In this document: positions 2,615 through 22,600 of the stretch, in pieces
Layout of the letters: every line of letters begins with the position of its first letter
How positions within the stretch are numbered: position 1 is the stretch's first letter
Virus record (IMG/VR): IMGVR_UViG_3300010354_000627
Location: 1-24,469 of that record
Strand: one strand, 5' to 3'
DNA length: 24,469 nt
DNA from: a virus
Program-made: the position numbers and the translations under genes
The notes under the pieces: generated by a model
What the model saw: only the letters and a program-made list of their open reading frames with translations
What the model was told of the DNA's origin: nothing
Databases searched by the model: none

Positions 2615-5600
2615 ATGTCAGATTTTGAGAAGAGAGTGCAGATCAATAGGATTATTGAGAGCCAACTTCCAGAGTTTATAGTTTCAGATTTTCCAAAGGC
2701 AATCGATTTCTTTAGACAATATTACATCTCCCAGGAGTTTCAGGGTGGTAACATTGATATTGCAGAAAATCTAGATCAGTATCTAAAACTTGATAATCTT
2801 GTTCCAGAAGTTGTTGTTGGATCAACAACTCTTTCTGCAAGCATTTCCTCTTCAGATACAACTATCACAGTTGCTTCTACAAAAGGATTTCCATCAGAAT
2901 ACGGTCTTTTAAAGATTGGTGATGAGATCATTACCTACACTGGTGTTACTCCAACCACATTTACTGGTTGTATTCGTGGATTTAGTGGTGTTACTGGATA
3001 TAATAACGTTTCCATTTCTGATTTTGTTGATAACGTAAATAAACAATCTCTAATATTTTCGGAATCTTCTCAGCAAAGTCACACATCAGGTGCAAAAATC
3101 ACTAACCTGAGTGTCTTATTCCTACAAGAATTCTATAAAAAACTCAAATATACCTTTACACCTGGATTAGAAAATTTTGATTTTGTTTCTGATCTTGATG
3201 TTGGCAATTTTATTAAACATGCGAGAGACTTTTATCAGTCAAAAGGTATTGAAGAATCTGTAAAAATTCTTTTTAAAGTTCTTTATGGGGTTGATGCTCT
3301 AGTATTAGATCTTGAAAGAAGACTTATTAAGCCATCTTCTGCCGAATATACCAGAAGAGAAGTTATTGTAGCAAAAAATATTTCCGGTGAACCTCTAAAT
3401 CTTGAAGGACAAACAGTATATAAATCGGATGATGTAACCACAAATGCTGCGGTTTCAAACATTGAAATATTTTCAAGAAATAATGAAACTTATTATAGAA
3501 TTGAACTGTTTGTTGGATACAGTGATAGAGATCTTATCGAAGGCATTTTCACAATTCCAGGAAAGACAAAGAATCTGGAAGAAGTTAGTGTTGGATCTTC
3601 TATAATTTTCGTTGATTCTACAATCGGATTTTCAGAGTCTGGAACTCTAATATCTGGCAACAATACTATAAAATATACTTCAAAATCTATTAATCAGTTT
3701 TTTGGTTGTACAGGAATCAATGAAGCAATTCCTATTGCATCCGATATCAGATCTGATGAGACAATTTATGGATATGAAAATGGAGATACTTCTAAAAGAG
3801 TTGATCTACGTATAACTGGTGTAATTTCAAAATTTGAAACAATTGATGATATTTCTCTTGTAGATGAAGGTGAAGAAATTACAGTCAAAAATCTTGGAGA
3901 AGTAATTAAAAATCCAAGTGGTACAAAAACATATAAAGAAATATTTGCAAATTCTTGGATTTATAACACTAGCACCAGATATCAAATTTCAAATATTTCT
4001 GGATCTACCTTTACGTTATTGAGTGAAGTTGATAAGTCTAGTCTAGATGTAGGTGATACTGTTGATATTTTATTCAGGAATACTAATAATATTGCTTCTT
4101 CTAGTGCAACTGTTACCACTATCAATAAATCTACAAAACAGATTATTTTGAGTGGGATTTCTGGATTTACACCAATTGTAAATCAATCTTATGATATAAG
4201 AAGAAAGATAAAAAAATCAAAGAGTTCTGGCGTTTCTCTTTTACTTGGTAATGATTCTTATATTTCCAATACACTAAATGTTTACACTACTGATGACAAT
4301 CAGGGATATGTTGCAGCAAACAGTCTACCATCATATGAAATTAATGATCAAATTATAGAGTCTAGTATACCTAATGGATCAACAACATATCTTGATGGAT
4401 ACAATTCTATTCTCCAAGCATATTCTATTATAAAGTTTGATAGTCCTATCAAATTTATTGATGGTGATGTTGTAACTTATAGTGCAAATCAACCACTTTC
4501 TGGATTAATTTCTGGATTTGATTATTATGTAAAGAAATTATCATCTAACCAAATTAGGTTATATGCGTCAAGATCACTATTGGGTGGTTCTGACTATGTT
4601 GTATTTGGTCAAAATTCTACTTCTGGAACTCATAGGTTTACCCTGAAGAGACATAGTAATAGATCTCTATCTTTGAATAAGATACTTAGAAAATTTCCAA
4701 TTGAAAAAACAATCACCAAGTTTGGCAAAAGTAGTGAAAGATCTTCAAATACCGTTACAGGTAGTATTGGAATCTTGATTGATGGTGTTGAAATTACCAA
4801 TCCAGAATCGAAGGATAAAATTTATTATGGTCCACTAAAAGAATTCAACGTTTTAAATACTGGGAAGGACTATGATGTCATAAATCCGCCCGAAATTACG
4901 ATTTCAGCAGGTGCTGGAATTACTGCTCTCGTTGAACCAATTATTGAGGGTAGTGTAAAAGAAGTTTTTGTAGATCCTCAAGACTTCGATGTTAACAATA
5001 TCGTTTCACTATCATTAACTGGTGGCAATGGAACTGGTTGTATCTTAGAACCAGTGATTGGCGAAAGATTTAGAGAAGTTGAATTTGATAGTAGAGCATT
5101 AACTGTTGGTGGTGGAGTTGATCTTACTGATGAAACAATTACATTTTTATCTAATCACAATTTTAACACTGGCGATGCGATCATTTACAATCAAAATGGA
5201 AATAATCCAATTTTAGTTGGACAACCTGGGGATATTACAAATACTGTAACAGGAACGTTAGTTGGTGGTGACATATATTATGCAAGATTTGTTAATACCA
5301 GATCTATTAAACTTTTCAATACTTTATCAGATTGTATTTCTGGAATTAATACCATTGGTTTTTCGACAACAAGCACATTTAGTGGCATCCATAAATTTAG
5401 AACTTTACCAAAAACAACTCTAAGGAGTGTCAAAGTCCTAAATGGAGGATCTGGTTATCAGCATAGAAAACTAAGAGTTAGTTCGACGGGAATTTCTACC
5501 GAGTATAATACAATTTCATATAAGAATCACGGATTCTCAACTGGTGAAATTGTAACTTATTCTACATCTGGATCTGAAATTTCTGGGTTATCAACCACAA

Positions 5601-8600
5601 ATAGTTATTCTATTGATAAAATTGATGCTAATACATTTAAACTTATCGATGTTGGCATTGGAGCATCGATTACTTCAAATCTTACTAAAAACAAGCATGT
5701 AGATATTCAATCTTTGGGATCTGGTTATCAAATATTCCAATATCCAGATATCCAAGTTAATGTAAACGTTTCTTATGGATCTACTTTTACTGGTGATTTT
5801 CTGTTTACTCCGATAGTTACTGGACAAATTACTGGTGCATACCTATATGAAAGCGGAACAGGTTATGGATCGGAAATTTTAAATTTACATAAAAAACCAC
5901 TAATTTCGTTAAAGAACGGAAAAAATGCTCAGTTGAATCCAATTGTTTCTGGTGGTAGAGTCATTGATGTTCAAATTTTAAGCACTGGATCCGAGTATTA
6001 TTCTATTCCCGAACTAATCACAACTGGTGAAGGAACTGGTTGTGTTCTTAAACCAGTTATCAGTAATGGAAAAATTACAGACGTTGTTGTAATTAATACT
6101 GGTATTGGTTATAGTTCAACTAATACCAATATTCAAGTTAAACCAAGAGGATCTGGTGCATTATTTGATGTAAGAGTAAGAGATCTTACAATTAATGATG
6201 CTGAAAGATACGCAACATATACTAGAACTAGAAGTCCAAAAATATTTTCAAGTTTAAACAACAGCACTACGGATGATTCTCTTGTTTATGGAATGTATGG
6301 TTATTCCGAAGATCTTGGAAATAATTATTCCGATTTCGGAAGTTTCCACTCACCTATAATCGGATGGGCTTATGATGGAAATCCAATATATGGTCCTTAT
6401 GGATATTCAAGACCAAATGATGTTCAATCTGGTATTAGAGTTTTAAATCCGGGTTATAATCTAAATTCCTCAAAAGTTGTCGATAGACCATCTACATTTT
6501 CTAGTGGATTCTTCATTGAAGATTTTGAATATACTGGCGATGGAGATCTAGATGAGCACAATGGTAGATATTGCAGAACACCAGATTTTCCAAATGGTGT
6601 TTATGCGTATTTTGCAGGTATAACAACGAGTCTATCAACAAATACTCTTGAACCTAGATATCCTTATTTTGTAGGAAATACTTTTAAATCGACTCTAATA
6701 TCGGAAAATTCTTACCTAGATCAATCTTTTGACTTTAATAATTCAGATTTAATTAGAAATACTTATCCTTATAAGATCAACGATAAGTATGCCGATTATG
6801 ACTTCTTAGTGGAACCTTATGAAGATTTTCCACAAGTAACTGTTGTTGAATCTGTAAATAAGGGTGTCGTTGATGTTATTAATGTTGTTGATGGTGGATC
6901 CAATTACAAAATTGGTGATGTAGTTAACTTTAATCAAACTGGAACTAATGGAACTGGATTAAGTGCCGAGGTTTCTGAGATTGTAGGTAAAAATATTAAT
7001 AATATTGAAACAACTCTTGAAACTTATTCTCCTTGCGTATTTGTTTGGGATAATGATAATACTGTTTCGGCATATTATGAATATGGTTTTGATTTAAAAA
7101 ATAATGACACTGTATTGGTTAGTGGTCTTTCAACCTCTATTGCAAGACTCTCTGGATCTAAAAAGGTAGGTTTTTCAACCGAAACTGTTGGGTTAGCAAA
7201 AACAATGAGCAGTTATAGCACACCAGGAGGCATAACTGAAGATATATCTGTTATTAGAAGACCACTTGTATCCATTGGAAGCAGTATTTACATTAAGTCA
7301 AGTCTTGGATCTGAAACTGTAAGGGTGTTGAATGATTTTAATAATGGTGTTTTAAGAGTAAAGAGATTTGGTAATACTGGTGCGGCTCATACTTTTGGAA
7401 GTGATTTAAATGTAATAAATGATAGGATAAGAATACAAACAAAATCTCCAGTATTCAAATCTGAAAGAGATAGATTAGTTTATTTTAACGCAAAAGATTC
7501 GGTTGGAATCGGAACTACTATTGGTGGAGCGGTATCTAAGACATTTACAATTGGTGAAACAAGTGAGAACATTTCTATTCCACATAGAAGCATATATCTA
7601 CCTAACCATCCATTCAAAACAGGAGATCAAGTTACCTTTACAAAATCAGATCTTGCTGGCATTGACTCATTGATTGTTGCAGACAACGACTCGAGTTTGA
7701 ATACATTCCAAATTCCAGATACCTTTACATTAACATCAACTGTTTACATCATTAATAAGAGTAGAAATCACATTGGTCTTGTAACTCAGGTTGGATTGAC
7801 AACAAATAGTGAGGGATTATTCTTCTACAGTGATGGAACAGATAATTCAGAGTATTTGTTAAAAACAAATTATGATAATGTAACGGGGCAGATTGATAAA
7901 GTAGTATCAACTGTTAGTGTTGCACAATCTCATGGTCTTTCCAATGGAGACACTATTAAATTAACGTTGGTACCTAATACCGTCGTTGGTTTAGGAACAA
8001 CATCCGCTCTATCCTTATCATTTAATGAAAATGAGAAGAAACTTCTAATTAATTCTATTGGTATTAATTCTACACAAATTAATGTGGCGGATAATACAAT
8101 CACAATTCCAAATCATGGATACAAAACTGGCGATAAAATCTTCTATGATAGTATTGAAGTTGCTTCTGGACTAACAACTGGTTCTTATTATGTAATTAAA
8201 GATAGCAATAGTAAGTTTAGACTTGCAGAAACTTTATATGATTCGAATCCAGAAACCGAAGCAGTTATTAATATTGTTGGCACCGGTGCATCAGTTCATA
8301 ATTTTGCCCTTATCAATCCAAAAATTGATGTAGTTAAAAATTCAAATCTAAAATTCAATTTAGGAGATTCTTCACTACAAGGATATAAATTTAAAATCTT
8401 TACTGACAAAGAATTTACTAATGAATTTACATCGATTGGAGATAGCACAGAATTTAATGTAATTGGTATTGGAACAGTTGGATTTGGAACTGCTTCTTTG
8501 ACAATTAATTATTCTAATAATCTTCCACAAAAACTTTTCTATTCGTTAGAAAAATCTGGATATATTAGTACAGCAGACAAAGAAGTTACTAACTATTCTG

Positions 8601-11600
8601 AAATTGATTATATCAATAGTGAATATAATGGAATATATTCTGTTTTTGGTATATCAACTAATAGTTTTAAAATTTCTCCCACAAGAGTTCCTACTGTTTT
8701 ATCTTATTACAGTGATCAAGTAGAAAAGTTTGAATACTCTACAAAATCTTCTACTGCAATTAATGGATCTATCGGGAAAGTTAAGATTCTTTCAAAAGGG
8801 TTTAATTTCAAGAAACTTCCAAAATTTGTTGACGTAACATCAAGTAATGGTCAAGATGCAAACCTTGTAGCAATTTCTACTTCTATTGGTGGAATTAAAG
8901 ATATTAGATTTAAAAATATTGGATATGAATATCCATCGGATAAAACTTTAAATCCACAAGCTTTTGTTGCTCCAATTGTAAATCTAGACAATTCAGACAC
9001 TATTGATGAAATAAGAATTATCTCTGGTGGAAGTAGATACCTAAATGCACCTAACTTACTTCTATGGAATGAGGCAACTAATACAGTTGTTGATGATTCC
9101 TCTCTAATAGCATTGACTCCAAGTGGTGCTATATCAGAGGTTGTAGAAGTTGCGCCAATATACGGATTAAAATCAGATCCACATAAAATTATTGCAGTTA
9201 ATAACTCGAATGGCGTTGGGATCAGTTCTTTAATTACAAGTAGTGGTGGAATTGCAACTTGCACAATATCAACACCAATTTTAGGATTCACTGAACCATT
9301 ATTTGACGAAAATGATGAAATTTTTGTAGAAGGTATTGAATTAATTGGAGATGGAACAGGTTATAACTCCGAAGATTATGATTATAGATTCTTTAAAGTT
9401 CAATCATATGTGAATTCCAATCCAGCAGTAGTTACTTTTGCTCTAGTTGATGATCTTGGTGTTGGACTATCTACAAATCCAGGAATAGCAAAAACATTCC
9501 AGTCTGGTTATGCAACTATCATTAACAAAGATTATTATCCACAAATTGAAGTTATTAAAAAGAGAGGCGAATTTGTATTAAACGAAAAACTTTTTGTTGA
9601 TACTGGAACTGGATTTATTGAAGAAGATCTTTCTATCTCTGCGATAAGAGATGAGTTTATTAAAGTTGTAGGTAGATACTCCTTACAAAGTGGAGATAAA
9701 ATTAAAGGTAAAAACAGTGGTATTATTGCGGACGTAGTATCTGTTGATGAAAACAGATCAAGATTTAAGATTGATTATGCGGCAAGACAAAATTTTGGAT
9801 GGAAAAATGACATTGGAAAGATTAGTGAAGATTATCAAGTAACACCAGATAATGATTACTATCAGAATCTATCTTACTCAATCAAGAGTCCAATAACTTG
9901 GGATAATCTTTCAAGTCCTGTTAACAGCATTATACACCCAGCAGGGATGAAGAATTTCGCTGATGTTGGTATAGTTTCAGCAACTAACAGTGGCGTTGGA
10001 TTAGCAGGAACAACAACTGCTACGATTGTTCTCGATGTCGTTGAAGAAAGAAGAGTTGATGTAATAAACAACTTTGACAATGTAGTTGACTATGACCCGA
10101 GAACAAATCCAGATCAATCTAAGTATCTTAAAATTCAAAATAGAAAACTGACTGATTATACCGAATGTAGAACTAATAGAGTTCTTATTCATGACGATAT
10201 TAGTTCCAGATTCTCGAGCAGAGGGTTTGAAGATCCTTTTGTGGAAATTGAAGAAATTGATACTATTGACACCCATGTAAGATACACGATTCAAATTGTA
10301 GATCCAGATACATTTGAGTGTCAGTTGACCGAATTAGTATTACAGACTACAACCATAGATTCTACAATTTTTGAGAAGTATACAATTTATAGTAATGAAC
10401 TTCTGGGCGATTTTAGTGCCAATGTAGATGATTTTGGTAGAAAAACACTTATTTTCACACCAACAGACAGGTTTACAAGAGACCATGACATTAAAATTCT
10501 GAAGAAGACTTTCTCCACTATATCAACTGGAATTGGAACACAAAGCATTGGATCTATTAACTTGATTGGTAATAATGTTCTTGGTATTTCTACCGTTGGA
10601 ACTTCAAGTAGTATAGGAACAATTGCAGAATTTTCAGATACTGATTTTAATGGATTATTTGCAAATGTTGAGATTCTTGATACCATAACTCAGGAAGTAA
10701 ACTATGTTGATGTTGCAATAGATTTTGATGGAACGAATACATATTTGAGCGAATATTACTTCGATACTACTTCACAGGGTTATAGTTCTTCTTCTATTGG
10801 ATTGGTAACCGCAATTTATGATTCCACATCTGGAATAGTTTCATTCAGAGTTAAAAATGAAGAGGAAAGTATCCTTAACGTTAGAGCAAATATTGTAGGA
10901 TTTGCCGCAACAACCGCTGGAATTGGTACTTATAGATTCTTGACAGTTGGTCAACCAGAAGAAGCAGAAAGAAGTGCAAAATTAGAGTCAACTGTTGGTG
11001 TTGGAACAACATCAATTAAAGTTGGTTCTTTCAATTCAAATCTAATATCGGCATCTTCTTCCCTTGTAAGGGTTTCTCTGGGAAGTAGTTCTGCAATTCA
11101 CCAGGTTTCGATCGTTAAAGGATTTGATAACGTAATCGTTGTTCCTGGACCTTTCTCACCAACAAATAATACAACAGGTCTTGGAACTTTTGGTGGAGAA
11201 AGTGTTGGTAATTATTTCTACTTGAATTTCTATCCCGACCATTCAGATTCTGAAACCACAGTTCAGGCATTTAATGAGACATTCTACACTTATAGTGATT
11301 TTGAAAATATACCAGAATCTCTAACTTATGGAAACAGCACTCAGAGACTGTTCTTATCAGCATATGACAGTATTAATGGAACAAGAGCAAACAAAGTTAA
11401 CTTTGACTTAAAACATGAAGGTGTTTCAATCTATAAGAAGACTTTTAATCCAGCAGATGCTGAAACTTTGAATTTGTCAACTGGCGTCTTTACTATTAGA
11501 AATCACTTCTTCAATACGGGAGAAGAATTAACTTATGCGCCGAAATCATCATTTATTGGTGTTGGTGAAAGTGCTGTTGGAATTGGATCTACCGCAAATT

Positions 11601-14600
11601 ATCTTGGTATTGTTACCGATAAACTACCAGAAAAAGTATATCCTATTGCTATTACACCAGATACCTTCAAATTAGCAACTCAAAGATCTTATGCATCTCT
11701 TGGTATAGGAGTAACATTTACTGATGTTGGTTTGGGTAATGCACATACTCTTGAAATGACCAAAAAACTCAGTAAGAGTGTGATTTCACTTGATGGTATT
11801 GTCCAACAACCAGTTACATTTACACCAATATCTCATACTCTTCAAAATAACAGTGGATCAATAAATGTAGGAATATCAACATTCAATCTTAGTGGAATAT
11901 CTTCAATTCAACCAAGAGATTTATTGAAAATCGATGATGAATACATGAAAGTTGTTGAAGTTGGTTTTAGCACTAATGTTGGTGGGGCATTATTAGGACC
12001 AATTAATGGAATTATTCAGGCAGGAACAGCAGCAACTATTCCAACAGTCTCTGTTGTAAGAGCGTCTGTTGGAAGCACAGCAACAGTTCACACAGATGGT
12101 GCTAATGTTCAGGTTTACAGAGGATCATTTAACATAGTTGGATCTGAAATATGGTTTGTTGATCCACCAAAGGGTAATACCAGAGCAAGAAGAGATGAAA
12201 GCAATCTTCCATATGTTAGAGCACAGTATGCTGGTAGAACATTCCTAAGATCAAATTATGATACCAATATGGTATTTGATGATATTTCTGATCAATTTAC
12301 TGGAATTGGTAAAACTTATACAATGACTGTGGAAGGTATTAATACAACTGGCGTTTCTATTGGCAATGGAATATTGTTTATCAATGGCGTCTTCCAAACT
12401 CCAACTACTTTAAATAATGCTGGAAATAACTATGAGTTTGAAAATGACACTATTGCTGGAATTTCTAGTGTAGTGTTCACAGGAATTACATCAACAGATG
12501 GAACATATATTAAGTCAGATTTTGATATTAATCAAAATCAACTTCCAAGAGGTGGTTTAATTGTTTCACTTGGTTCTACTCCTGGACTTGGATATGCTCC
12601 ATTAGTTGGAGCAAAAGTAAAAGCAGAGATTGATGGATCTGGATCGATCACTAATATTGTTGGAACTTCCTATACGGGATCTGCCTTATCAATTAGCACG
12701 GCGTTCTACTATAATCAAACTGGATTAGTTGAAATTACTACAACCACAGATCATAATTTGGTTGGCGGTGATAGAATTAAGTTAGTTGGTTTAGGATTTA
12801 CATGCCCATCTGGTGCAGGAATAGTATCTTACTTCCCATCAACTGGACTGGACTATTCTTACGATATCACTGGTATTGTATCTGATAGAACCTTTACAGC
12901 AAACGTAGGAACAAGCACCCTGACACATTATTACATTGGATTTGGTACTATATTCCAATGGTATGATCTCAATAATGGATCTGGATATAGAAACCCAATT
13001 TCTATCGGTGTTACAGATCCAAATCATACAGGAACTGAAGCAAGTATTACCGCTGTTGTTGGTGCTGGCGGAACACTTGGGTTTGTTATTAATAGTGGCG
13101 GATCTGGATACACAAATCCTTACATTGAAATTCCAGACCCAGTTTATGAAAATATGGAAGTTGTTGGTATTTCAAGAGTTGGACTCGGAACAACAACGGA
13201 TACTGGATCAAATCTATTAATGAATATTAAGATTGGACCAGCTCCTGGAAATATTGGTATTGGATCCACATTGAGTGGTATTACTTATGATGCAGGCAAC
13301 GAGTTAGAAACTCGTCGTTCTACACCAGTAAAACAGTTTGATACTGCATATAGTGTTGGTGCTGGATCATCTCTATTCCAGGTGGAATCTTTTGAGATAG
13401 CAAGACCTGGATATGCATTCCAGGTTGGTGATAAGTTTAAAATCGTTGGTTTAGTTACTGCAAAAGATTATGCAGAACCAGTAGAAGAATTTACTCTTGA
13501 AGTTGTTTCAACATTCCAAGATTATTTCTCAGCATGGTCATTTGGTGAAATGAATTACATCGATAGTATATCAACATTACAAGATGGTAACAGAAAGAGA
13601 TTCCCACTCTATTATAATGGTCAACTTCTGAGTTTTGAAATTGATCCAAATAATCCTCTTTCGGGAGCAATTAATTTGGATGCTGTTCTTTTAATCTTTG
13701 TAAATGGTGTAATTCAGCAACCATCTTATGCATACAAATTCTTCGGCGGAACATCTTTTGAATTTACTACCGAAGCCCCAACTGCAACTGATAAAGTTGA
13801 TATTTTCTTCTATGTCGGACAAAATGGTGTTGATATCACGTTGATTGATGTTAATGAGACGATTAAGATTGGTGATGACTTATTTGTTAAGAAGAATCCA
13901 TTCTATAATGATCTACCTGGTCAGGAAAGAGAAAGAACAGTAGTAGATATTATTGGTGCAGATGTAACTGAAACTGACATTTATTCTGGAAGTGGTATTG
14001 ATGATATAACTTACAGACCAATAGAGTGGATAAAACAGAAGAGAGACAAATACATTAAGGGAGATATTGTTTACAAATCTCGTGACTCTATCGAACCTTT
14101 TGTCTATCCAACTGCTAAAATTATAGGTGATATTGAAATCGGTAGTTCGCAGATTTTTGTTGATAATGCAGAGTTCTTCAACTATGAAGAAGACAATTAT
14201 GGAATAAGTATCACTTCATTTGATGGTCTCATCGTCCAAGGAACCGACCCCGTTTCTGCTGCGTTCACCGCAACAGTATCAGTTGCAGGAACAATTTCAA
14301 ATATAACTATCACAAATGCAGGTCTTGGTTATTCCAGTGCTTCTATACCTGTCAAAATTTCTGCACCATCTTTGATTGGAGTTGGTGTCGGAACGACTGC
14401 AATTGCAACGGCAACTATTTCGGGTGGACAAGTTTCTTCGGTAACAATTACAAATCCTGGTTTTGGTTATACGAACACCAATCCACCAAATGTTATTGTT
14501 GAAATTCCAGCAACAACAAAAGAAACAATCACTTCTATTGCAAATGTTCAAGGATTTAGTGGTATTATAACAGGCATTAGCACTACAACTGGAACTGGTG

Positions 14601-15061
14601 GACATCCATTAGCACTAAAAATTAATTTTAGAGCAAATGCATCTGATGCTAATGATTTACAAGTTGGATATCCAATTCTTGTATATAATACAACTGTTGG
14701 TTCTGGACTCACTTCTGTTAACAGTGAAGATGCTTCTATTGTTGGAATAGGAACTTCTTTCCTCGATAATGTATACATTGTTAATTCAAAAGTGAACTTT
14801 GGACCGAATGCTGAGATTATATGTAATGTAAGAAGTGACAGTAACGTTATTGGAATTGCATTAACTGGATCAACTACTGCACCAATTGGTAATGTCTCTT
14901 GGGGAAGATTATACAACTTCGCATCGAGAACAACTCCTATTTCTATTGGTGTCACTGGTTTAACAATTGATGCTGGATTATCCACTTTCCCAACGATTCA
15001 GAGAAGAACATTCGGACTAAGAAATAGTGGAGCGATCAGAAAACTTTCCAACCTACCTTGA
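2615..15061 (+). CDS. Giant modular virion structural protein at the gp7 position (4148 aa)
   Basis: This single uninterrupted frame encodes 4148 residues, roughly four times T4 gp7 (about 1030 aa), and sits exactly between gp6 and gp8, where T4 has gene 7. Residues about 1-60 (LPEFIVSDFPKAIDFFRQYY) and 165-245 (FIKHARDFYQSKGIEESVKI, then LFKVLYG) form a helical domain typical of phage baseplate/tail proteins. It is split by a beta module at about 67-129 (GFPSEYGLLKIGDEIITYTG, then GCIRGFSG). The rest is beta-rich and repetitive: xSGxGY modules at about 742-786, 936-957, 1029-1191, 1418-1454, 2051-2152, 3473-3519 and 3892-3965; NHxFxTGD modules from about 847 to 3385; NGVxQxP modules at about 3057, 3254 and 3693. 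A YHYH-like domain lies at 1247-1334. The C-terminus ends PTIQRRTFGLRNSGAIRK. No signal peptide or membrane segment is seen. It stops with TGA; most neighbours use TAA. The gp7-equivalent role rests on position and the N-terminal domain, so it is inference; 'large virion structural protein' is safe. Confidence 0.93.
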   Translation: MSDFEKRVQINRIIESQLPEFIVSDFPKAIDFFRQYYISQEFQGGNIDIAENLDQYLKLDNLVPEVVVGSTTLSASISSSDTTITVASTKGFPSEYGLLKIGDEIITYTGVTPTTFTGCIRGFSGVTGYNNVSISDFVDNVNKQSLIFSESSQQSHTSGAKITNLSVLFLQEFYKKLKYTFTPGLENFDFVSDLDVGNFIKHARDFYQSKGIEESVKILFKVLYGVDALVLDLERRLIKPSSAEYTRREVIVAKNISGEPLNLEGQTVYKSDDVTTNAAVSNIEIFSRNNETYYRIELFVGYSDRDLIEGIFTIPGKTKNLEEVSVGSSIIFVDSTIGFSESGTLISGNNTIKYTSKSINQFFGCTGINEAIPIASDIRSDETIYGYENGDTSKRVDLRITGVISKFETIDDISLVDEGEEITVKNLGEVIKNPSGTKTYKEIFANSWIYNTSTRYQISNISGSTFTLLSEVDKSSLDVGDTVDILFRNTNNIASSSATVTTINKSTKQIILSGISGFTPIVNQSYDIRRKIKKSKSSGVSLLLGNDSYISNTLNVYTTDDNQGYVAANSLPSYEINDQIIESSIPNGSTTYLDGYNSILQAYSIIKFDSPIKFIDGDVVTYSANQPLSGLISGFDYYVKKLSSNQIRLYASRSLLGGSDYVVFGQNSTSGTHRFTLKRHSNRSLSLNKILRKFPIEKTITKFGKSSERSSNTVTGSIGILIDGVEITNPESKDKIYYGPLKEFNVLNTGKDYDVINPPEITISAGAGITALVEPIIEGSVKEVFVDPQDFDVNNIVSLSLTGGNGTGCILEPVIGERFREVEFDSRALTVGGGVDLTDETITFLSNHNFNTGDAIIYNQNGNNPILVGQPGDITNTVTGTLVGGDIYYARFVNTRSIKLFNTLSDCISGINTIGFSTTSTFSGIHKFRTLPKTTLRSVKVLNGGSGYQHRKLRVSSTGISTEYNTISYKNHGFSTGEIVTYSTSGSEISGLSTTNSYSIDKIDANTFKLIDVGIGASITSNLTKNKHVDIQSLGSGYQIFQYPDIQVNVNVSYGSTFTGDFLFTPIVTGQITGAYLYESGTGYGSEILNLHKKPLISLKNGKNAQLNPIVSGGRVIDVQILSTGSEYYSIPELITTGEGTGCVLKPVISNGKITDVVVINTGIGYSSTNTNIQVKPRGSGALFDVRVRDLTINDAERYATYTRTRSPKIFSSLNNSTTDDSLVYGMYGYSEDLGNNYSDFGSFHSPIIGWAYDGNPIYGPYGYSRPNDVQSGIRVLNPGYNLNSSKVVDRPSTFSSGFFIEDFEYTGDGDLDEHNGRYCRTPDFPNGVYAYFAGITTSLSTNTLEPRYPYFVGNTFKSTLISENSYLDQSFDFNNSDLIRNTYPYKINDKYADYDFLVEPYEDFPQVTVVESVNKGVVDVINVVDGGSNYKIGDVVNFNQTGTNGTGLSAEVSEIVGKNINNIETTLETYSPCVFVWDNDNTVSAYYEYGFDLKNNDTVLVSGLSTSIARLSGSKKVGFSTETVGLAKTMSSYSTPGGITEDISVIRRPLVSIGSSIYIKSSLGSETVRVLNDFNNGVLRVKRFGNTGAAHTFGSDLNVINDRIRIQTKSPVFKSERDRLVYFNAKDSVGIGTTIGGAVSKTFTIGETSENISIPHRSIYLPNHPFKTGDQVTFTKSDLAGIDSLIVADNDSSLNTFQIPDTFTLTSTVYIINKSRNHIGLVTQVGLTTNSEGLFFYSDGTDNSEYLLKTNYDNVTGQIDKVVSTVSVAQSHGLSNGDTIKLTLVPNTVVGLGTTSALSLSFNENEKKLLINSIGINSTQINVADNTITIPNHGYKTGDKIFYDSIEVASGLTTGSYYVIKDSNSKFRLAETLYDSNPETEAVINIVGTGASVHNFALINPKIDVVKNSNLKFNLGDSSLQGYKFKIFTDKEFTNEFTSIGDSTEFNVIGIGTVGFGTASLTINYSNNLPQKLFYSLEKSGYISTADKEVTNYSEIDYINSEYNGIYSVFGISTNSFKISPTRVPTVLSYYSDQVEKFEYSTKSSTAINGSIGKVKILSKGFNFKKLPKFVDVTSSNGQDANLVAISTSIGGIKDIRFKNIGYEYPSDKTLNPQAFVAPIVNLDNSDTIDEIRIISGGSRYLNAPNLLLWNEATNTVVDDSSLIALTPSGAISEVVEVAPIYGLKSDPHKIIAVNNSNGVGISSLITSSGGIATCTISTPILGFTEPLFDENDEIFVEGIELIGDGTGYNSEDYDYRFFKVQSYVNSNPAVVTFALVDDLGVGLSTNPGIAKTFQSGYATIINKDYYPQIEVIKKRGEFVLNEKLFVDTGTGFIEEDLSISAIRDEFIKVVGRYSLQSGDKIKGKNSGIIADVVSVDENRSRFKIDYAARQNFGWKNDIGKISEDYQVTPDNDYYQNLSYSIKSPITWDNLSSPVNSIIHPAGMKNFADVGIVSATNSGVGLAGTTTATIVLDVVEERRVDVINNFDNVVDYDPRTNPDQSKYLKIQNRKLTDYTECRTNRVLIHDDISSRFSSRGFEDPFVEIEEIDTIDTHVRYTIQIVDPDTFECQLTELVLQTTTIDSTIFEKYTIYSNELLGDFSANVDDFGRKTLIFTPTDRFTRDHDIKILKKTFSTISTGIGTQSIGSINLIGNNVLGISTVGTSSSIGTIAEFSDTDFNGLFANVEILDTITQEVNYVDVAIDFDGTNTYLSEYYFDTTSQGYSSSSIGLVTAIYDSTSGIVSFRVKNEEESILNVRANIVGFAATTAGIGTYRFLTVGQPEEAERSAKLESTVGVGTTSIKVGSFNSNLISASSSLVRVSLGSSSAIHQVSIVKGFDNVIVVPGPFSPTNNTTGLGTFGGESVGNYFYLNFYPDHSDSETTVQAFNETFYTYSDFENIPESLTYGNSTQRLFLSAYDSINGTRANKVNFDLKHEGVSIYKKTFNPADAETLNLSTGVFTIRNHFFNTGEELTYAPKSSFIGVGESAVGIGSTANYLGIVTDKLPEKVYPIAITPDTFKLATQRSYASLGIGVTFTDVGLGNAHTLEMTKKLSKSVISLDGIVQQPVTFTPISHTLQNNSGSINVGISTFNLSGISSIQPRDLLKIDDEYMKVVEVGFSTNVGGALLGPINGIIQAGTAATIPTVSVVRASVGSTATVHTDGANVQVYRGSFNIVGSEIWFVDPPKGNTRARRDESNLPYVRAQYAGRTFLRSNYDTNMVFDDISDQFTGIGKTYTMTVEGINTTGVSIGNGILFINGVFQTPTTLNNAGNNYEFENDTIAGISSVVFTGITSTDGTYIKSDFDINQNQLPRGGLIVSLGSTPGLGYAPLVGAKVKAEIDGSGSITNIVGTSYTGSALSISTAFYYNQTGLVEITTTTDHNLVGGDRIKLVGLGFTCPSGAGIVSYFPSTGLDYSYDITGIVSDRTFTANVGTSTLTHYYIGFGTIFQWYDLNNGSGYRNPISIGVTDPNHTGTEASITAVVGAGGTLGFVINSGGSGYTNPYIEIPDPVYENMEVVGISRVGLGTTTDTGSNLLMNIKIGPAPGNIGIGSTLSGITYDAGNELETRRSTPVKQFDTAYSVGAGSSLFQVESFEIARPGYAFQVGDKFKIVGLVTAKDYAEPVEEFTLEVVSTFQDYFSAWSFGEMNYIDSISTLQDGNRKRFPLYYNGQLLSFEIDPNNPLSGAINLDAVLLIFVNGVIQQPSYAYKFFGGTSFEFTTEAPTATDKVDIFFYVGQNGVDITLIDVNETIKIGDDLFVKKNPFYNDLPGQERERTVVDIIGADVTETDIYSGSGIDDITYRPIEWIKQKRDKYIKGDIVYKSRDSIEPFVYPTAKIIGDIEIGSSQIFVDNAEFFNYEEDNYGISITSFDGLIVQGTDPVSAAFTATVSVAGTISNITITNAGLGYSSASIPVKISAPSLIGVGVGTTAIATATISGGQVSSVTITNPGFGYTNTNPPNVIVEIPATTKETITSIANVQGFSGIITGISTTTGTGGHPLALKINFRANASDANDLQVGYPILVYNTTVGSGLTSVNSEDASIVGIGTSFLDNVYIVNSKVNFGPNAEIICNVRSDSNVIGIALTGSTTAPIGNVSWGRLYNFASRTTPISIGVTGLTIDAGLSTFPTIQRRTFGLRNSGAIRKLSNLP
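4838..5063 (+). repeat. First xTGxxY/xSGxGY-type module region in the giant protein
   Basis: Residues about 742-816 read KEFNVLNTGKDYDVINPPEI, then ISAGAGITALVEPII, then GSVKEVFV and GTGCILEPVIG. This is the same order (V-x-V-x-x-x-G-x-x-Y, then PP-x-I, then G-x-G-A/C-x-x-x-P-V/I) seen in the later, clearer copies. The copy is divergent. Boundaries are approximate and rest on visual alignment. Confidence 0.6.
5822..6187 (+). repeat. Clearest tandem xSGxGY module array in the giant protein
   Basis: Residues 1070-1191 contain three successive units: ITGAYLYESGTGYG, then VIDVQILSTGSEYYSIPEL, then ITDVVVINTGIGYSSTNTNI. Each follows the pattern I/V-T/I-x-V-x-I-x-x-x-G-x-x-Y, and units are linked by GTGCVLKPVISNGK-type segments (G-x-G-A/C, aliphatic-x-P-V/I, then a G-x-I turn). 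The unit length is about 35-45 residues. The pattern implies a repeating beta fold. The same unit appears in gp8 and in the DUF4815-like protein. Confidence 0.75.
6353..6616 (+). other. YHYH-like domain embedded in the giant protein
   Basis: Residues 1247-1334 hold two motifs typical of the YHYH domain family: PIIGWAYDGNPIYGPYGY (about 1247-1264), matching the family's G-x-A-x-DG-x-PIYGP block, and LDEHNGRYCRTP (1312-1323), matching its LDE-x-NG block. The region ends V-Y1330-A-Y1332-F where the family normally has the Y-H-Y-H signature, so both signature histidines are missing. The YHYH family occurs in secreted and cell-surface proteins of uncertain function, as far as I know. The assignment is from motif reading; the degenerate ending suggests a structural or binding role rather than metal binding, which is inference. 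Confidence 0.75.
13691..13819 (+). repeat. NGVxQxP beta module near the C-terminus of the giant protein
   Basis: Residues 3693-3735 read LIFVNGVIQQPSYAYKFFGG, then TSFEFTTEAPTATDKVDIFF. Related copies are LFINGVFQTPTT at about 3254 and ISLDGIVQQPVTFTP at about 3057. This 'NGV-x-Q-x-P ... Y ... FxF ... AP ... D-x-V-x-I' unit is a recurring element in marine phage tail and fibre proteins as I know them. Three copies in one protein again indicate growth by duplication of modules. Confidence 0.65.
14288..14509 (+). repeat. C-terminal pair of xxGxGY modules in the giant protein
   Basis: Residues 3892-3965 contain two adjacent units: GTISNITITNAGLGYSSASI and GQVSSVTITNPGFGYTNTNP, each followed by an I-x-I/V-x-x-P strand and joined by a GTTAIATATISGG linker. 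They are the most similar pair of copies in the protein and suggest a recent duplication. Confidence 0.75.
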
Positions 15062-15066
15062 TTGAA

Positions 15067-15074
15067 TATAAATA
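15067..15074 (+). promoter_or_regulatory. T4-type late promoter for gp8 and the DUF4815-like gene
   Basis: A perfect TATAAATA starts 5 bases after the TGA stop of the giant gene and ends 18 bases before the gp8 ATG. With a start site 6-7 bases downstream, the leader would be only about 12 bases. The short, non-coding position makes it the most convincing late promoter here. Confidence 0.85.
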
Positions 15075-15092
15075 CATAAAAAAAGTTTAAAG

Positions 15093-16652
15093 ATGTCAGC
15101 AATTGTTACTGATCAATTTAGAATTTTGAATGCTAGCAATTTTGTCGATTCCGTAGAGTCAACAAATAATTCTTATTATATTACCGTTGGATTACCAAAT
15201 CCAACGGTAGTTGGGTTTGGAAGATCTACTGCATGGAATACAAATACTCCTGCTCCCATTGATAATTTTTCATACACAAAACATTATGCAGATACGATTT
15301 TGTATGGAAAGAAGATAACTTCTGCAAATATTAGAAGAATAATCAGAAGAATCGATTGGGTTGCTGGAAGTAGATATGAAATGTATAGGGATGATTATAG
15401 TATATTAAATCCAAGTCCTCTGACCAATTCATCCAGATTATATGATGCAAATTACTATGTGATGAACGGGGACTATCGAGTTTATGTTTGTATTGAAAAC
15501 GGTTCCAGTGGAACTAATTCAAAAGGAAATGTATCTCAGGATGAACCAACATTTACAGATTTAGAACCATCAAGAGCAGGTTCAAGTGGAGATGGATATA
15601 TTTGGAAATACTTATTTACAATTTCACCAAGTGATATTATTAAATTTGATTCAACAGAATATATTACTGTTCCTAATAATTGGTTAACCTCAACAGATTC
15701 TCAAATCCAAGCAATCAGAGAATCTGCTGATTCAAGTATAAATGAAAATCAAATTAAGACAGTATACATTGAAAAATCTGGTTCAAATTATTCTAATGGA
15801 CTTGGGCAAGAATTTGATATTCTTGGAGATGGGACAAATGGTAGAGTTCGTGTTGATGTTGAAGGTGGTCAAATAACAAATACAGTCGTTACTTCTGGCG
15901 GAAAAGATTACAGTTATGGTTTGGTAGATCTTGGATCTATAAACACAAATACAATTGGATCTCCCGCCAAATTAGTTCCTATCATTCCACCATCGAGAGG
16001 TCATGGATATGACATCTATACTGAACTAGGAACTGATAAAGTTCTAGTTTATGCAAGATTTGATGATTCCACGAAAGATTTCCCAATTGACACTACTTTC
16101 TCCCAAATTTCAATTATAAAAAATCCAACATCGATTGGTTCTACGCAGGTCTATACTGAAAACTCTTTTACAGGATTATATGCAATGAAGTTTTCTTCCA
16201 TAACTGGAACACCAACAATCGGTGAAAAGATTGAGCAGATTGTATCGAGTGGAACTGGAAGAGCTTTTGGATATGTTGCTTCTTGGGATAGTGAAACAAA
16301 CGTTCTAAAATATTTTAGAGATAGATCTCTCTATTTCAATCAAACAACTTTTGATCAACAAGATTATGTTGGGATTTCCACGAATGGGGAAGTATATTCT
16401 TTTGAATCTTCCGCCAATTCGATTATTGGAAAATCCTCTGGTTTTTCGGCATCTATTGACACTGCTTTTGCAGGTATATCGACAAATCCAACAGGGGCGA
16501 AATTAATTAATCTTGGAGTTAATTTCACATCTGGGATGGCAAGTCCTGAAATAAATAAAGGATCAGGAGATATAATTTATCTCGATAATCGACCTACTAT
16601 TAGTAGAAGTTCTCGTCAAAAAGAAGACATTAAAATTGTACTGGAATTTTAA
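15093..16652 (+). CDS. 8: Baseplate wedge subunit gp8, enlarged (519 aa)
   Basis: The homology to T4 gp8 (334 aa) is clear: AIVTDQFRI near the N-terminus, a FGRSTAWN block, GDGYIWKYLFTISP (166-179) with EYITVPNNW after it, FSQISIIKNP (336-345), and the C-terminal GDIIYLDNRP (492-501) ending in an EEI/EDI-x-I-x-L/x-F strand as in T4. In T4, gp8 is a dimer in the baseplate wedge that binds gp10 and gp7. This copy is about 185 residues longer. The extra length lies in two places: about residues 223-310, which contain xSGxxY modules (YIEKSGSNYSNG and NTVVTSGGKDYSYG), and about 346-490. The gene follows a late promoter with a very short leader and no clear Shine-Dalgarno sequence. A 12-bp perfect hairpin lies about 90 bases inside it. 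Two bases separate it from the next gene. Confidence 0.95.
   Translation: MSAIVTDQFRILNASNFVDSVESTNNSYYITVGLPNPTVVGFGRSTAWNTNTPAPIDNFSYTKHYADTILYGKKITSANIRRIIRRIDWVAGSRYEMYRDDYSILNPSPLTNSSRLYDANYYVMNGDYRVYVCIENGSSGTNSKGNVSQDEPTFTDLEPSRAGSSGDGYIWKYLFTISPSDIIKFDSTEYITVPNNWLTSTDSQIQAIRESADSSINENQIKTVYIEKSGSNYSNGLGQEFDILGDGTNGRVRVDVEGGQITNTVVTSGGKDYSYGLVDLGSINTNTIGSPAKLVPIIPPSRGHGYDIYTELGTDKVLVYARFDDSTKDFPIDTTFSQISIIKNPTSIGSTQVYTENSFTGLYAMKFSSITGTPTIGEKIEQIVSSGTGRAFGYVASWDSETNVLKYFRDRSLYFNQTTFDQQDYVGISTNGEVYSFESSANSIIGKSSGFSASIDTAFAGISTNPTGAKLINLGVNFTSGMASPEINKGSGDIIYLDNRPTISRSSRQKEDIKIVLEF
15182..15209 (+). other. 12-bp perfect hairpin early in gene 8
   Basis: TACCGTTGGATT (15182-15193) pairs perfectly with AATCCAACGGTA (15198-15209) across the 4-base loop ACCA. 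It lies at codons 30-39 of gp8, about 100 bases downstream of the predicted transcription start. No T-run follows, so it is not an intrinsic terminator. It could act as an RNA structure affecting translation or stability, or be a chance effect of the coded GLPNP peptide. It is the longest perfect inverted repeat I noticed in the window. Confidence 0.65.
15759..15959 (+). repeat. xSGxxY modules inserted in gp8
   Basis: gp8 residues 223-289 hold two units, TVYIEKSGSNYSNGLGQEF and ITNTVVTSGGKDYSYGLVDL, linked by DGTNGRVRVDVEGGQ. The order matches the giant protein's xSGxGY units (strand, SGxxY, then GxG/TNG, strand, GG-turn, next strand). T4 gp8 has nothing like this between EYIVVPW and FRQISI, so it is an insertion relative to T4. 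Confidence 0.7.
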
Positions 16653-16654
16653 AA

Positions 16655-19600
16655 ATGCCACAAAAGACTAATTTAAACATCAGTCCTTACTATGATGATT
16701 TTGATAAGGCAAAGAATTTTTACAGAGTTCTTTTTAAGCCTGGTTATCCTGTTCAGGCAAGAGAACTAACTGGTCTACAATCAATTCTACAAAATCAAAT
16801 AGAATCATTCGGAAGTCATATATTCAAAGAAGGTTCTATGGTAATTCCTGGTGGAGTTACCTATGATGATAGATTCTATTCAATAAAAGTAAATCCAGAG
16901 CATCTTGGAGTAGATGTTACAGTATACTTGGATGCACTTGTCAACGGAAAAGTAAGAGTTAGAGGACAAAGTTCTCAAATTGTTGCCTCTGTTAAAAAAT
17001 ATCTTTTACCACCAGAAGAAGAAGTTGATGAAATAACAATATTTGTTAAGTATGTTGAATCTGGGTCTGATTTACAAAGTTCTCCTTTTCCCGATGGAGA
17101 AATTCTTGTTCTAGAAAGTAATATAACATATGGAAATACAACGTTAAATGCCGGAGATACAGTTTTAACATTAGTTTCTCAAAATGCAACTGCAACTGGA
17201 TCAGCAGTTGGTCTGGATAAAGGTGTATATTTTATTAGAGGAACATTTGTAGATGTACCAACAACTCAGATAGTTCTTGATCCATACTCAAATACTCCAT
17301 CATATAGAGTTGGTTTAGATATTCTTGAAGAAATTGTAAATTCGAACGATGATTCTTCTTTAAATGATAATGCAAAAGGATTCACTAATTATGCTGCACC
17401 TGGCGCAGATAGATTTAAGATTAGTGTAACGTTATCTAAGAAATCCCTCTTAGACTTTAATGATACTAATTTTGTTGAACTGGTTAGAATTGATGATGGT
17501 GAAATCAAGAAGTTACAAAATTCTTCGGAATATTCAGAGATAAAGAAATATTTTGCGAAAAGAACATACGAAGAATCTGGCAACTATGCATTAAGCCCAT
17601 TCAAGGTTAATGTATTAAATTCTCTTAATGATGAGATTTCTTCTGGTGGAATTTACAGAGAAGGTGAATTATCCGAGCAAGGAAATCTTCCATCAGAAGA
17701 TACCATGTGTGTTAGAGTATCTTCAGGAAAAGCATATGTAAGAGGATATGATGTTGATCTTGTAGGATCTACTGTTATTGATGTAGAAAAACCAAGAGAT
17801 ACTAAAACAATAGATACGGCTCTCGTTCCATTTAGAATGGGAAGTCTACTTAAAGTTAATAATGTTTATGGAGTTCCATACATTAATATTGGGGACCCTA
17901 TTAGTGGTGGAACCAACGTAGTAGATCTTTATAACAGAAGAAGAAATACATCAACTACAAATGCCGGAACTGGAACAAAAATAGGTGAGGCAAGAATATA
18001 TTGGTATGGAGTATCAGATGCTCCATATACTGGCGCATCTACTGAATGGGATTTATATCTTTTTGATGTTCAAACTTATACAAATTTATATCTTTCTCGT
18101 GAGATTAGTATTTTAGAGGCACCAGCAACTTCTTTTGTAAGAGGTTTAAGTAGCGGTGCTACTGGATATGTTGTATCAAAACCAAATAACTCTTCATTTA
18201 GTTTATCTCAAACGTCTGGAACCTTTATCCAAGGTGAACAGATTATTATCAATGAGGATACTTCGACATCTGCTGCGATCGTATCTGTAATCACATATAC
18301 AACGGATGATATTAAATCTGTATATCAAGATTCGACTACGCTGAATTCTAGTTTACAAACAGATTTTATTGCAGATACTGTTTTGTATGATAGAATTCTA
18401 CCTAATTTTTCTATTGTAGATCAATTAAGCATTACCCCTGCTGGATCTGCAACATGTACTGGAAAAGCATTTTCTGGTTCAATCGGAATTAAAACAGAAT
18501 CAGTAATTAAATATCAGAAAGGAAATTCAACTGTCCCAACTTTTAATAGAGTAAGTAATATCTCTGCTGATGGAAGTACAATTACACTTGCAGCATTAGA
18601 TACGACTGCAACAATACCTGGGGTTGGAGAAGGATCTTTACCTGGAATAACTACATCTTCTACATTTTCTATTGCTGTTCCCAGAATAACAAATCTAGAT
18701 AAATCTTCTCTGTATGCAGAACTGCCAAAGAAAAATATTTCTTCGGTAAATCTATCAGATTCTAGTTTAATAATTACAAAGCAAGTAACTGGACAGACAA
18801 CAACATCAACAGGAACACTGACAATAACAGCATCAACTGTTTTAGATGCTTCTGCTGGTATTACTAGTGCATTTTTTGAATCATTTGATGCCGAAAGATA
18901 TTCAGTCCATTATAGTGATGGTACAACAGAAGATCTTAGATCTGATCAAGTTACAATTGGAACTAACGGAGATTCTGTTGCATTTACTGGATTAAATTCA
19001 GGAGAATCCAATGTTACTGTAATATGCACTCTAAGAAAAACAAACGTAACTAATAAGTCTAAAAATTATATTCGTAGTTCTAAGGTATCCGTTATTAACA
19101 CAAGTGGAATATCTACCACTGCAAGTGGATTGACAACCAGTAAGTATTACGGAACTAGAATTGAAGATAGAGAAATATCTCTGAATGTTCCCGATGTTGC
19201 GAATGTCATTGCAGTATACGAATCTACAACTACCTCTGCTCCAATCCTAGACAAATTAACTTTTGTCTCTGGATTGTCATTGGATACAAATACAATATTG
19301 GGTGAAAGAATAATTGGCGAAAATAGCAGAGCAATAGCGCAGTTGGTAACAAGATCTTCTTCTACTGAAGTTGAAATTGTTTATTTAAATGCCAATAGAT
19401 TTGAAGTTGGAGAAACTGTAAAATTCAAGGAATCTAACATTGAAGTTGCGATTCAAAGTTTGACAAAGGGTAGTTATGTAAATCGCACAAATAATTATAC
19501 TCTAGATAAGGGACATAGATCTCAATATTGTGATTATTCGAGACTTGTTAGAGTTCAAGGTGGTCCAACACCATCAAAACAACTTCTTGTTATTTTTAAT

Positions 19601-22600
19601 TACTATGAAGTAACCTCAGGAAATAGTGGAGATATATTCACCGTAAATTCTTATACTAGTGATAGATATGCCAAGGATATACCTATTCTTCCAGGTAATA
19701 TTAGAGAAACTGATGTTTTAGATTTTAGACCAAGAGTAGAACCATTTACATCAACAACAGCATCTCCTTTTGCATTTAATAGTAGGTCTTTTGAAACTAA
19801 TTACAGATATGTGATTGCACCCGATGAAAGTTCTCTGGTTGGATATAGTTATTATCTACCAAGAACCGATAAAATTACTCTCAACAGGTTGGGACAAATT
19901 AGTGTAATTAAAGGAACTTCATCCGATAATCCACAAGCACCTGTTGATATTGATGATGCAATGGAAATTGCTCAGATATCATATCCACCATATCTGTATG
20001 ATCCCGTAACTGAACCATCTATAAAATTACAAGATAATAGAAGATTTACAATGCGCGACATTGCAAGTCTTGAAAATAGAATTAAAAATTTAGAAACTAC
20101 AACTACGCTGTCGGCACTTGAACTTGACACCAAGTCATTACAAGTAACTGATGCTCAAGGTTTAAATCGATTTAAAACTGGATTTGTCGTCGATAATTTC
20201 CAAAACAGAGATTTTATAGATCTTGCTGATAGTGATGTTAAGTGTGATGTTAATGTTGTTGACAGAGAATTAATTTCTGCTGTTGATTTTTGGTCAATGT
20301 CTGCTGAACTGGCATTGGATCCTGGAATTGACCCAGCAGCTGCTGATTTATCTTCTAACTTAAGACTATTAGATACTAATATCAGAAAAACTGGCGATTT
20401 ACTTACCCTAGATTATACTGAAATTGATTGGATTAATCAACCACAGGCAACTCAGGTCGAAAATGTCAATCCATTTAATGTTGTCGTTTTTGTTGGCGGC
20501 ATTGCTATGGATCCTGTTTCTGATAACTGGGTCAGAACCATTTACATTGATAATAACAGAACAGAATCAACTGGAGCAGCATGGGCTGAAAAAGCAAATC
20601 AAAATGTTCAGGTTAATGTTAGAAGAGAAGGTAAGAAGGAGATAGAAACCAGAACTACTACAACTTCTTTCACAAATGTTCTTGAAGGTCCATCAAGAGA
20701 ATTTAATTACGTTGAAAGTGTTAAAGTTTCTGGTGATGCAGATCCATACATGCGTTCTAGAAATGTTTATTTCAATGCAAATGGACTGAAACCATTTACT
20801 ACTCATTATCATTATTTGGATGCTCAACAACCAGATTTTTGTCCGAAATTATTAGAAATTCAAATGAACTCTGGAACTTTCCAGATTTATGAGAAGGCAA
20901 AAGTCTATTATAATGGGCAACAAATTGCAAGAATAAGAGTTCAAAAACCAAATCATAAATTTGGAGATACTAGTAGACCAGATATCGGTGCTGGTTTAGG
21001 TTCACCATCAGTTTTGGTTGAAAATTATAGTGTAGACCCATATGATAGAACTAGACCTGCACCTGGAGATTCATACTCAGCAACTTCAAGATTATTCAAT
21101 GTTGGTGTAAGAGCACTGTCAACTGAACCACATGTTTATTTTGGTTACGTTGTTTCTGGCGCAACTATTGTTGGTGAAACTAGTGGTGCTGTTGCTACTA
21201 TCACAAGATCGGAACTTATATCTGATAATTGGGGAGACATTGTTGGAAACTTCTTCTTCAGAGATCCAAACACAAATCCACAACCACCCGTTCTAATTAG
21301 ATCAGGGACTAAAACATTTAAAGTTACTGCTGTTCCTCCTGGTGTCACTCCATTGCCAGGAAGTACTGCTTTTGCAAGTGAGGCGATTGGTTCATACAGT
21401 GGAACTGGAACTATTCTAACTCAGAATACAACAACAGTATCTGTAAGAAATCCACCCCCACCAGCAACAAGACCAAATGATGTAAATGTTGCTGTTAAAG
21501 CAACTCATAGAGATCCTCTTGCACAAACATTTACAGTTGATGGAACAGGTGCATTCTTAACATCATTTGATGTTTACTTTGCAACCAAAGATCCTTCTGC
21601 AAAGATCTTTGTTGAACTTAGAACAGTTGAATTAGGGACACCAACAAACTTCTTGGTTCAAGATTATACTCAGGTTTCTCTAAATCCAAACGATATTCAA
21701 ACTTCGACGGATGCAACGGTTCCAACTAGAATTAGGTTCCCATCTCCCGTTTATTTGGAAGCAGATAGAGAATATGCCTTAGTATTCTTATCTCCTGCAT
21801 CTGATTTGTATGAGATGTGGGTCGCAACAATGGGTCAAAAAACAGTTAGAACTCAGAACTTCCCAGATGTTCAATCAGTAGTTGTTTCTAAACAGTATAT
21901 TGGTGGAAGCTTGTTCAAATCCCAAAACGGAACCATTTGGACACCAAGTCAATATCAAGATCTAACATTCAAACTTTACAAGGCAGAATTTGTTTCTTCT
22001 GGAAGTTTGACCTTCTATAATACCCCAATTAATCCAGGAAACATTAATGCTGGTAAATTACCATCAAACCCAATTAAAACATTACCAAGAAAACTAAGAG
22101 TTCCAGTTGCTAATACGTCATCTCTTACATCAATCCTAACACCAGGAAGAAAAGTTGGAGAAGGTTCTGTTTCCGGAACTAGTATTACTGGATTTATTGA
22201 GCAAGTTGGTGGTGCTATTAATTCTACTGGAACGGGATCGGTAGAAATAATTGGAATTGGAACTGGTTATCCTAATGGAACATATAACAACGTTCCCCTA
22301 TATTCTATTACTGGCGGTGGTGCAGATGCAACTGCAAATATTACCATAGCAGGTGGAACAGTATCGAGTGTCAGTGTTACTGGTGTTGGTACTGGTTACA
22401 TACTGGGAGAAACACTTGGAATTACTACAAGTTCTCTTTCTTCTGGTAGTAGCAGTGGAAGAGGGACTGGTGCAAAAATTGGCGTCAAAGCAATTGGAAA
22501 TCCAACACACTTGTATCTAACGAACGTTCAAGGTGAACAGTTTAATTCTGGTCAAACCTTAATTTACTATGTCGGTGACACAAGAACAACATCGTCTTCT

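Follow-up and report, generated by a model that had tools for sequence, protein, structure and literature searches.

A recurrent GxGY beta module in the giant baseplate protein, gp8 and a DUF4815 protein of a T4-like cyanophage as a probable old accessory domain

Background

The giant baseplate proteins of cyanophages are mostly without annotation, and the locus examined here raises the question of why one of them shares a small glycine-rich repeat unit with its two neighbours. The original prediction offered two answers: the unit had spread between adjacent genes by recombination, or it is a common adhesion or assembly element. We combined profile comparison, phylogeny and structure prediction to infer the relationship, history and potential role of the copies.

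Results and discussion

The baseplate locus

The window (the whole stretch of 24,469 nucleotides that was analysed) is, based on its ORFs and their family assignment, a fragment of a T4-like cyanomyovirus covering the baseplate gene cluster, with ORFs in the order gp25, gp6, a 4148-aa giant, gp8 and a DUF4815 protein. This gene order matches that of Prochlorococcus phage P-SSM2, and the window gp8 is about 64% identical to its closest relatives among named phages. The three genes that carry the unit are:

2615..15061, + strand: giant baseplate protein, gp7 position, 4148 aa (phrog_2885; P-SSM2 orthologue annotated gp7)
15093..16652, + strand: gp8 baseplate wedge subunit (phrog_438, Pfam PF09215)
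16655..23965, + strand: DUF4815 protein (PF16075, phrog_358)

The giant protein also has other repeats and domains. A Pfam YHYH domain (PF14240, E 2.6e-25) lies at window 6284-6634 (aa 1224-1340), and a second repeat, NHxFxTGDxVxY, occurs in five copies (aa 847, 971, 1664, 1833 and 2963), one of which gives a weak E1_FCCH match. In P-SSM2 gp7 (25005-40592), the module pair that corresponds to giant aa 3440-3530 is interrupted by a very long stretch of other repeats.

Module copies in the three genes

We counted about 14 xGxGY half-units in the giant, one pair in gp8 and one pair in the DUF4815 protein. An HMM trained on the 14 window-giant copies recovers the giant copies, which are the same copies it was trained on, and next to nothing in shuffled controls. 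The copies are located as follows:

4817..4972, + strand: giant, module half-unit(s), aa 735-786 (HMM match aa 739-768)
5411..5494, + strand: giant, single xGSGY half-unit, aa 933-960 (HMM)
5675..6160, + strand: giant, four half-units in array, aa 1021-1182 (HMM; AlphaFold2 model)
6842..7009, + strand: giant, half-unit (GGSNY), aa 1410-1465 (HMM match aa 1414-1448)
8750..9082, + strand: giant, three half-units, aa 2046-2156 (HMM match aa 2047-2156)
12944..13147, + strand: giant, half-unit pair, aa 3444-3511 (HMM)
14264..14515, + strand: giant, half-unit pair nearest the family consensus, aa 3884-3967 (HMM, PHROG profile matches)
15708..16001, + strand: gp8, insertion relative to T4-type gp8, aa 206-303, containing the module pair (global profile alignment)
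15732-15920, + strand: gp8, module pair, aa 214-276 (HMM, AlphaFold2 model)
22217..22429, + strand: DUF4815-like protein, single module pair, aa 1855-1925 (profile-profile and HMM)

The sites predicted earlier in gp8 and the DUF4815 protein agree with these HMM and profile coordinates. The recurring unit described as x-x-G-x-G-Y is indeed present, but not as a strict motif: KDY, SNY, SEY and NF are also found at the turn.

Homology of the giant, gp8 and DUF4815 copies

Profile comparisons and leave-out HMMs confirmed the claim that the giant, gp8 and DUF4815 proteins all carry one shared small domain, predicted to be beta-rich. Comparing orthologue alignments of the three genes as profiles gave best scores of 40-50, and none of 59 control windows from the same proteins rose above 19.7. 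Specifically, gp8 matched giant 1062-1190 (prob 95, score 47), the DUF4815 copy matched giant 3880-3985 (prob 95.7, score 49.5), and gp8 matched the DUF4815 copy (prob 92.8, score 40). Several more diverged giant copies do not beat the control windows in pairwise profile comparison, whereas all giant copies beat the controls against a pooled profile that includes those copies. Consistent with this, the phrog_438 (gp8) profile was matched by a giant module segment at 4e-7 and by the DUF4815 module segment at 3e-4.

Detection with an HMM built from the giant copies, as had been proposed, was a close call with a small seed: gp8 was recovered marginally, at about 9 bits, but DUF4815 was missed. 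An early single-sequence seed HMM was poorly aligned and its iterated models shrank, and non-redundant and two-unit models were used instead. Because some pooled HMMs contained gp8 or DUF4815 rows, we made leave-out HMMs trained without either. These found the window gp8 at E 2.6e-5 to 3.3e-7 (giant-only model, E 1.5e-5 with Z=1000; cellular-only model, E 2.6e-5) and, the giant-only model excepted, the DUF4815 stretch at 13-16 bits (cellular-only, 16.1 bits), while controls reach 6.0-9.4 bits (6.0 bits being the highest score in a set of 404 shuffled or reversed controls). The window DUF4815 protein was not found by the giant-only HMM and scores weakly in HMM searches of the single sequence; the S-PM2 protein at the DUF4815 gene position is matched by that same giant-only model (E 1e-7).

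The insertion in gp8

That T4 gp8 lacks the unit was borne out with T2: the module HMM has no match in T2 gp7-gp11, and none in the gp8 of Aeromonas 65 or Vibrio K491. In a global profile alignment, the place of aa 206-303 of the module-bearing gp8 is taken in T2 gp8 by a short loop near residue 220-235.

The same alignment places a second gp8 insertion relative to T4 gp8 at aa about 344-480 (window 16122-16532), and part 361-485 of the gp8 model resembles small beta-barrels (Z 5-6), for example that of a JBD30 baseplate protein and the one at the N-terminus of F1-ATPase.

Distribution beyond the three genes

Confining the module to three adjacent genes proved too narrow, with copies present elsewhere in P-SSM2, in other phages and in bacterial genomes. 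In P-SSM2 further copies lie in the neck gene gp14, in two tail-fibre genes and in the hub lysozyme; the distance to the baseplate cluster is about 4 kb for the nearest of these genes and exceeds 100 kb for the farthest. The window module segments match profiles of at least 16 PHROGs, most of which comprise virion proteins. Among them are phrog_438 (cyanophage gp8), phrog_460 (head closure Hc2) and phrog_2885; these three are whole-protein families, and none of them describes the module itself. The number of gp14 half-units varies from about seven in S-8S56 and four in P-SSM2 to none in S-SM1 or T2, and the protein after gp8 in S-SM1 is also without the module. The module follows the pattern of an accessory domain, being inserted in virion proteins and absent from some orthologues, as seen for gp14, gp8 and the gene that follows gp8. 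In Stenotrophomonas phage Marzo, gp8 and the preceding gene both carry it. With tblastn, whose sensitivity is limiting here, module queries matched only cyanophages and marine virus records.

In the S-SM1 cluster (12798-16961), gp9 and a 1387-aa wedge protein lie upstream of gp8, and the module abounds in this wedge protein (E 2e-17 to 5e-33).

We also scanned cellular genomes with a strict DNA pattern encoding GG[ST]GYTxAPT, which occurs in at least 117 stretches from many phyla, some of them on contigs that may hold prophages. In bacterial genomes of many phyla the module forms tandem repeats, and a further HMM-supported copy is present in 95 of 120 cellular motif ORFs and 64 of 80 from viral contigs. 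One such ORF, from Neobacillus cucumis, has tandem GxGY modules followed by a stretch that by eye resembles multicopper oxidase. For six module segments, no Pfam or NCBIfam family, Ig-like families included, scored above its cut-off, and a literature text search with motif strings found no paper on the module. Searching plasmids with part of a fibre protein gave no match, a result of little weight because the query sequence was approximate. Overall, the module is an old, widespread building block of phage tail and neck proteins and of bacterial proteins, and not a recent local copy.

Predicted fold and structural relatives

The AlphaFold2 model of gp8 (53 sequences) has a mean pLDDT of 70.5, with the module at 80-90, and that of giant aa 1014-1196 (27 sequences) a mean of 66.3, with model residues 91-160, the last two half-units of the aa 1021-1182 array, mostly at 84-94. 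The proposed comparison of folds gave the same strand order in both, in sequence register: E223-228, E236-245, E248-257 and E260-271 in gp8, and E102-113, E120-124, E128-137 and E140-151 (model numbering) in the giant. The whole gp8 model matches T4 gp8 at Z 14.9. For the module itself every structural Z-score is below 8, so any fold label is soft; giant model 85-167 reached at best Z 4.3 against Ig/FnIII chains, and Foldseek of the giant model against the PDB returned nothing significant.

One solved protein was found by sequence, namely Dpo31, a marine podovirus tailspike, whose aa 441-505 match the module profile at E 1.4e-4. Available extracts of the source describe its residues 434-536 as an inserted domain of Ig-like type with a distant resemblance to domains that bind sugars (PMC13317679). 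This domain, D3* (Cobetia phage Carin-1; PDB 28lx, 28mg, 8ck1), has the same two-half-unit sequence inserted in a virion protein; unlike the window copies, it is a single copy within a tailspike beta-helix and, in those extracts, is described as Ig-like. Dpo31 was not among the matches listed for the giant model in the structure search, which we do not count as evidence against the relationship.

Domain I of the T4 sheath protein gp18 (PDB 3foa) is a probable, though unproven, relative. The gp8 module (222-300) superimposes on gp18 domain I (99-188) at Z 5.5, again below 8, with rmsd 3.2 over 74 residues, the first aligned residues being gp8 KTVYIEKSGSNY (222-233) on gp18 IEYTISTPGSNY (99-110; T2 gp18 numbering). 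Like the module, domain I is a small inserted beta domain, and the GSNY motifs of both are in register; unlike it, domain I has a degenerate second GxGY and an alpha helix, having been described as a six-stranded barrel plus helix (PMC3004832). In 57 of 78 gp18 orthologues the best, weak HMM match falls in domain I (best E 7e-5; reversed maximum 1.4 bits). The in-register profile alignment scores 21.2 against 17.2 for the best control, but most profile pairs taken one at a time fail to beat the controls. The Ig-like accessory domains of phage structural proteins, discussed for sheaths in PMC9230969, are comparable in being extra beta domains on core virion proteins, patchy among orthologues, but the module has no Pfam match and a tandem GxGY half-unit architecture.

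Possible role of the module

Our assessment is that the three genes probably share one old accessory beta domain, inserted long ago into loops of their products, inherited in place since, and likely to be surface-exposed and weakly adhesive or cementing. The domain would comprise about 60-85 residues made of two xGxGY half-units, each running roughly strand, GxGY turn, strand, GxGA, strand, GG hairpin, and the paired half-units may be arranged as an Ig-like beta-sandwich or as a barrel of six strands. The domain presumably entered loops of core virion proteins at an early date, ahead of the divergence of the sampled relatives, and would have been inherited in place from then on, with many, partly tandem, copies in the giant. 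Since T4-type orthologues are without it, it may be dispensable for core assembly in T4; the additional domains of the T4 sheath are likewise supposed to be nonessential for sheath formation (PMC9230969). An exposed, accessory position on the virion outside is suggested because the module occurs in insertions, is absent from T4 orthologues and is present in fibres and a tailspike. Its most likely role would then be to provide additional weak, repeated contacts, either with glycans on the host surface or from one subunit to the next.

A purely structural spacer fits almost as well. Here the homologous module would enlarge and stiffen the virion through subunit-subunit contacts without touching the host, which agrees with its presence in the P-SSM2 neck protein gp14 and hub lysozyme and with the proposal that extra domains reinforce sheath proteins (PMC9230969). 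Its occurrence in tail fibres and a tailspike, and its frequency in bacterial-genome ORFs, speak against this reading, to which we give somewhat less than an even chance.

Inheritance in place versus exchange between neighbours

An old accessory domain inherited in place would account for how the copies are related. The gp8 pair is at the same place in all of about 80 close relatives, and the DUF4815 pair was seen in those whose sequence covers that region. As had been proposed, we built a tree of the copies, using 72 module pairs, whose few columns leave the deep forks soft. On this tree the copies sort by gene position with as few changes as possible (4, against a shuffled mean of 41), giving one clade per position with the exception of a long-branched S-PM2 copy at the DUF4815 position. 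Copies of different genes within one genome showed no excess similarity at p<0.05 in 14 of 15 tests, and DNA repeats between copies are short and about 65-85% alike, with no long near-identical repeats linking them. On this sequence evidence the spread of the module is ancient, because of the position clades, the lack of a consistent same-genome excess and the short, diverged repeats.

A rival reading, which takes up the first answer of the original prediction, is that recombination within this phage lineage carried the module from one to another of the three neighbouring genes, with exchange continuing. The adjacency of the genes is compatible with this, as are the sister grouping of the gp8 and DUF4815 clades (98/94) and the lone same-genome excess, a slight one between gp8 and one giant array (p=0.026, one of the 15 tests). 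The clustering by position, the tests without signal, the missing long repeats, and the copies in distant genes and other phages make it quite improbable, recent events being already largely refuted. The joint grouping of the gp8 and DUF4815 copies makes one ancient exchange between those two genes possible. Recent exchange between neighbours was rejected on the DNA repeat, same-genome and tree results, and the idea that the repeats act as recombination hotspots went with it, having no DNA basis. The other half of the prediction, a common adhesion or assembly element, fits the PHROG matches, the distant P-SSM2 genes, the tailspike and the bacterial copies. Very improbable is convergence, in which Gly/Thr-rich beta proteins reached the GxGY hairpin motif independently: the units are short and of low complexity, between-gene similarity is low and some diverged giant copies are not above controls pairwise, but the best matches stay in register over 50-60 residues and surpass every one of the 59-65 control windows, and 0 of 400 reversed or shuffled ORFs passed the HMM threshold against 159 of 200 motif ORFs with further copies.

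Coevolution lead and significance

In a coevolution experiment with S-PM2d, the genes reported as mutated include 081, gp8, 084, 086 and 088 (PMC9910659). All five S-PM2 genes have module HMM matches (for 088, in the first 1406 aa, which were scanned), that of gp8 being marginal with the giant-only HMM. We regard this overlap between the mutated genes named there and module-bearing genes only as a lead, these genes also being large targets. A broader proposal, which we hold tentatively and consider rather unlikely, is that this unnamed GxGY family is a general contractile-tail add-on, represented by T4 gp18 domain I and by cyanophage gp7, gp8, gp14, hub and fibre proteins, and that the S-PM2 coevolution mutations fall in the module.

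Part of the size of the giant cyanophage baseplate proteins is explained by a single domain that recurs in gp7, gp8, gp14, DUF4815, hub and fibre proteins. Once recognised, the module offers a testable model of a removable accessory domain and would fill a missing protein-family entry, and it may link the giant cyanophage baseplate proteins to the long-solved T4 sheath domain.
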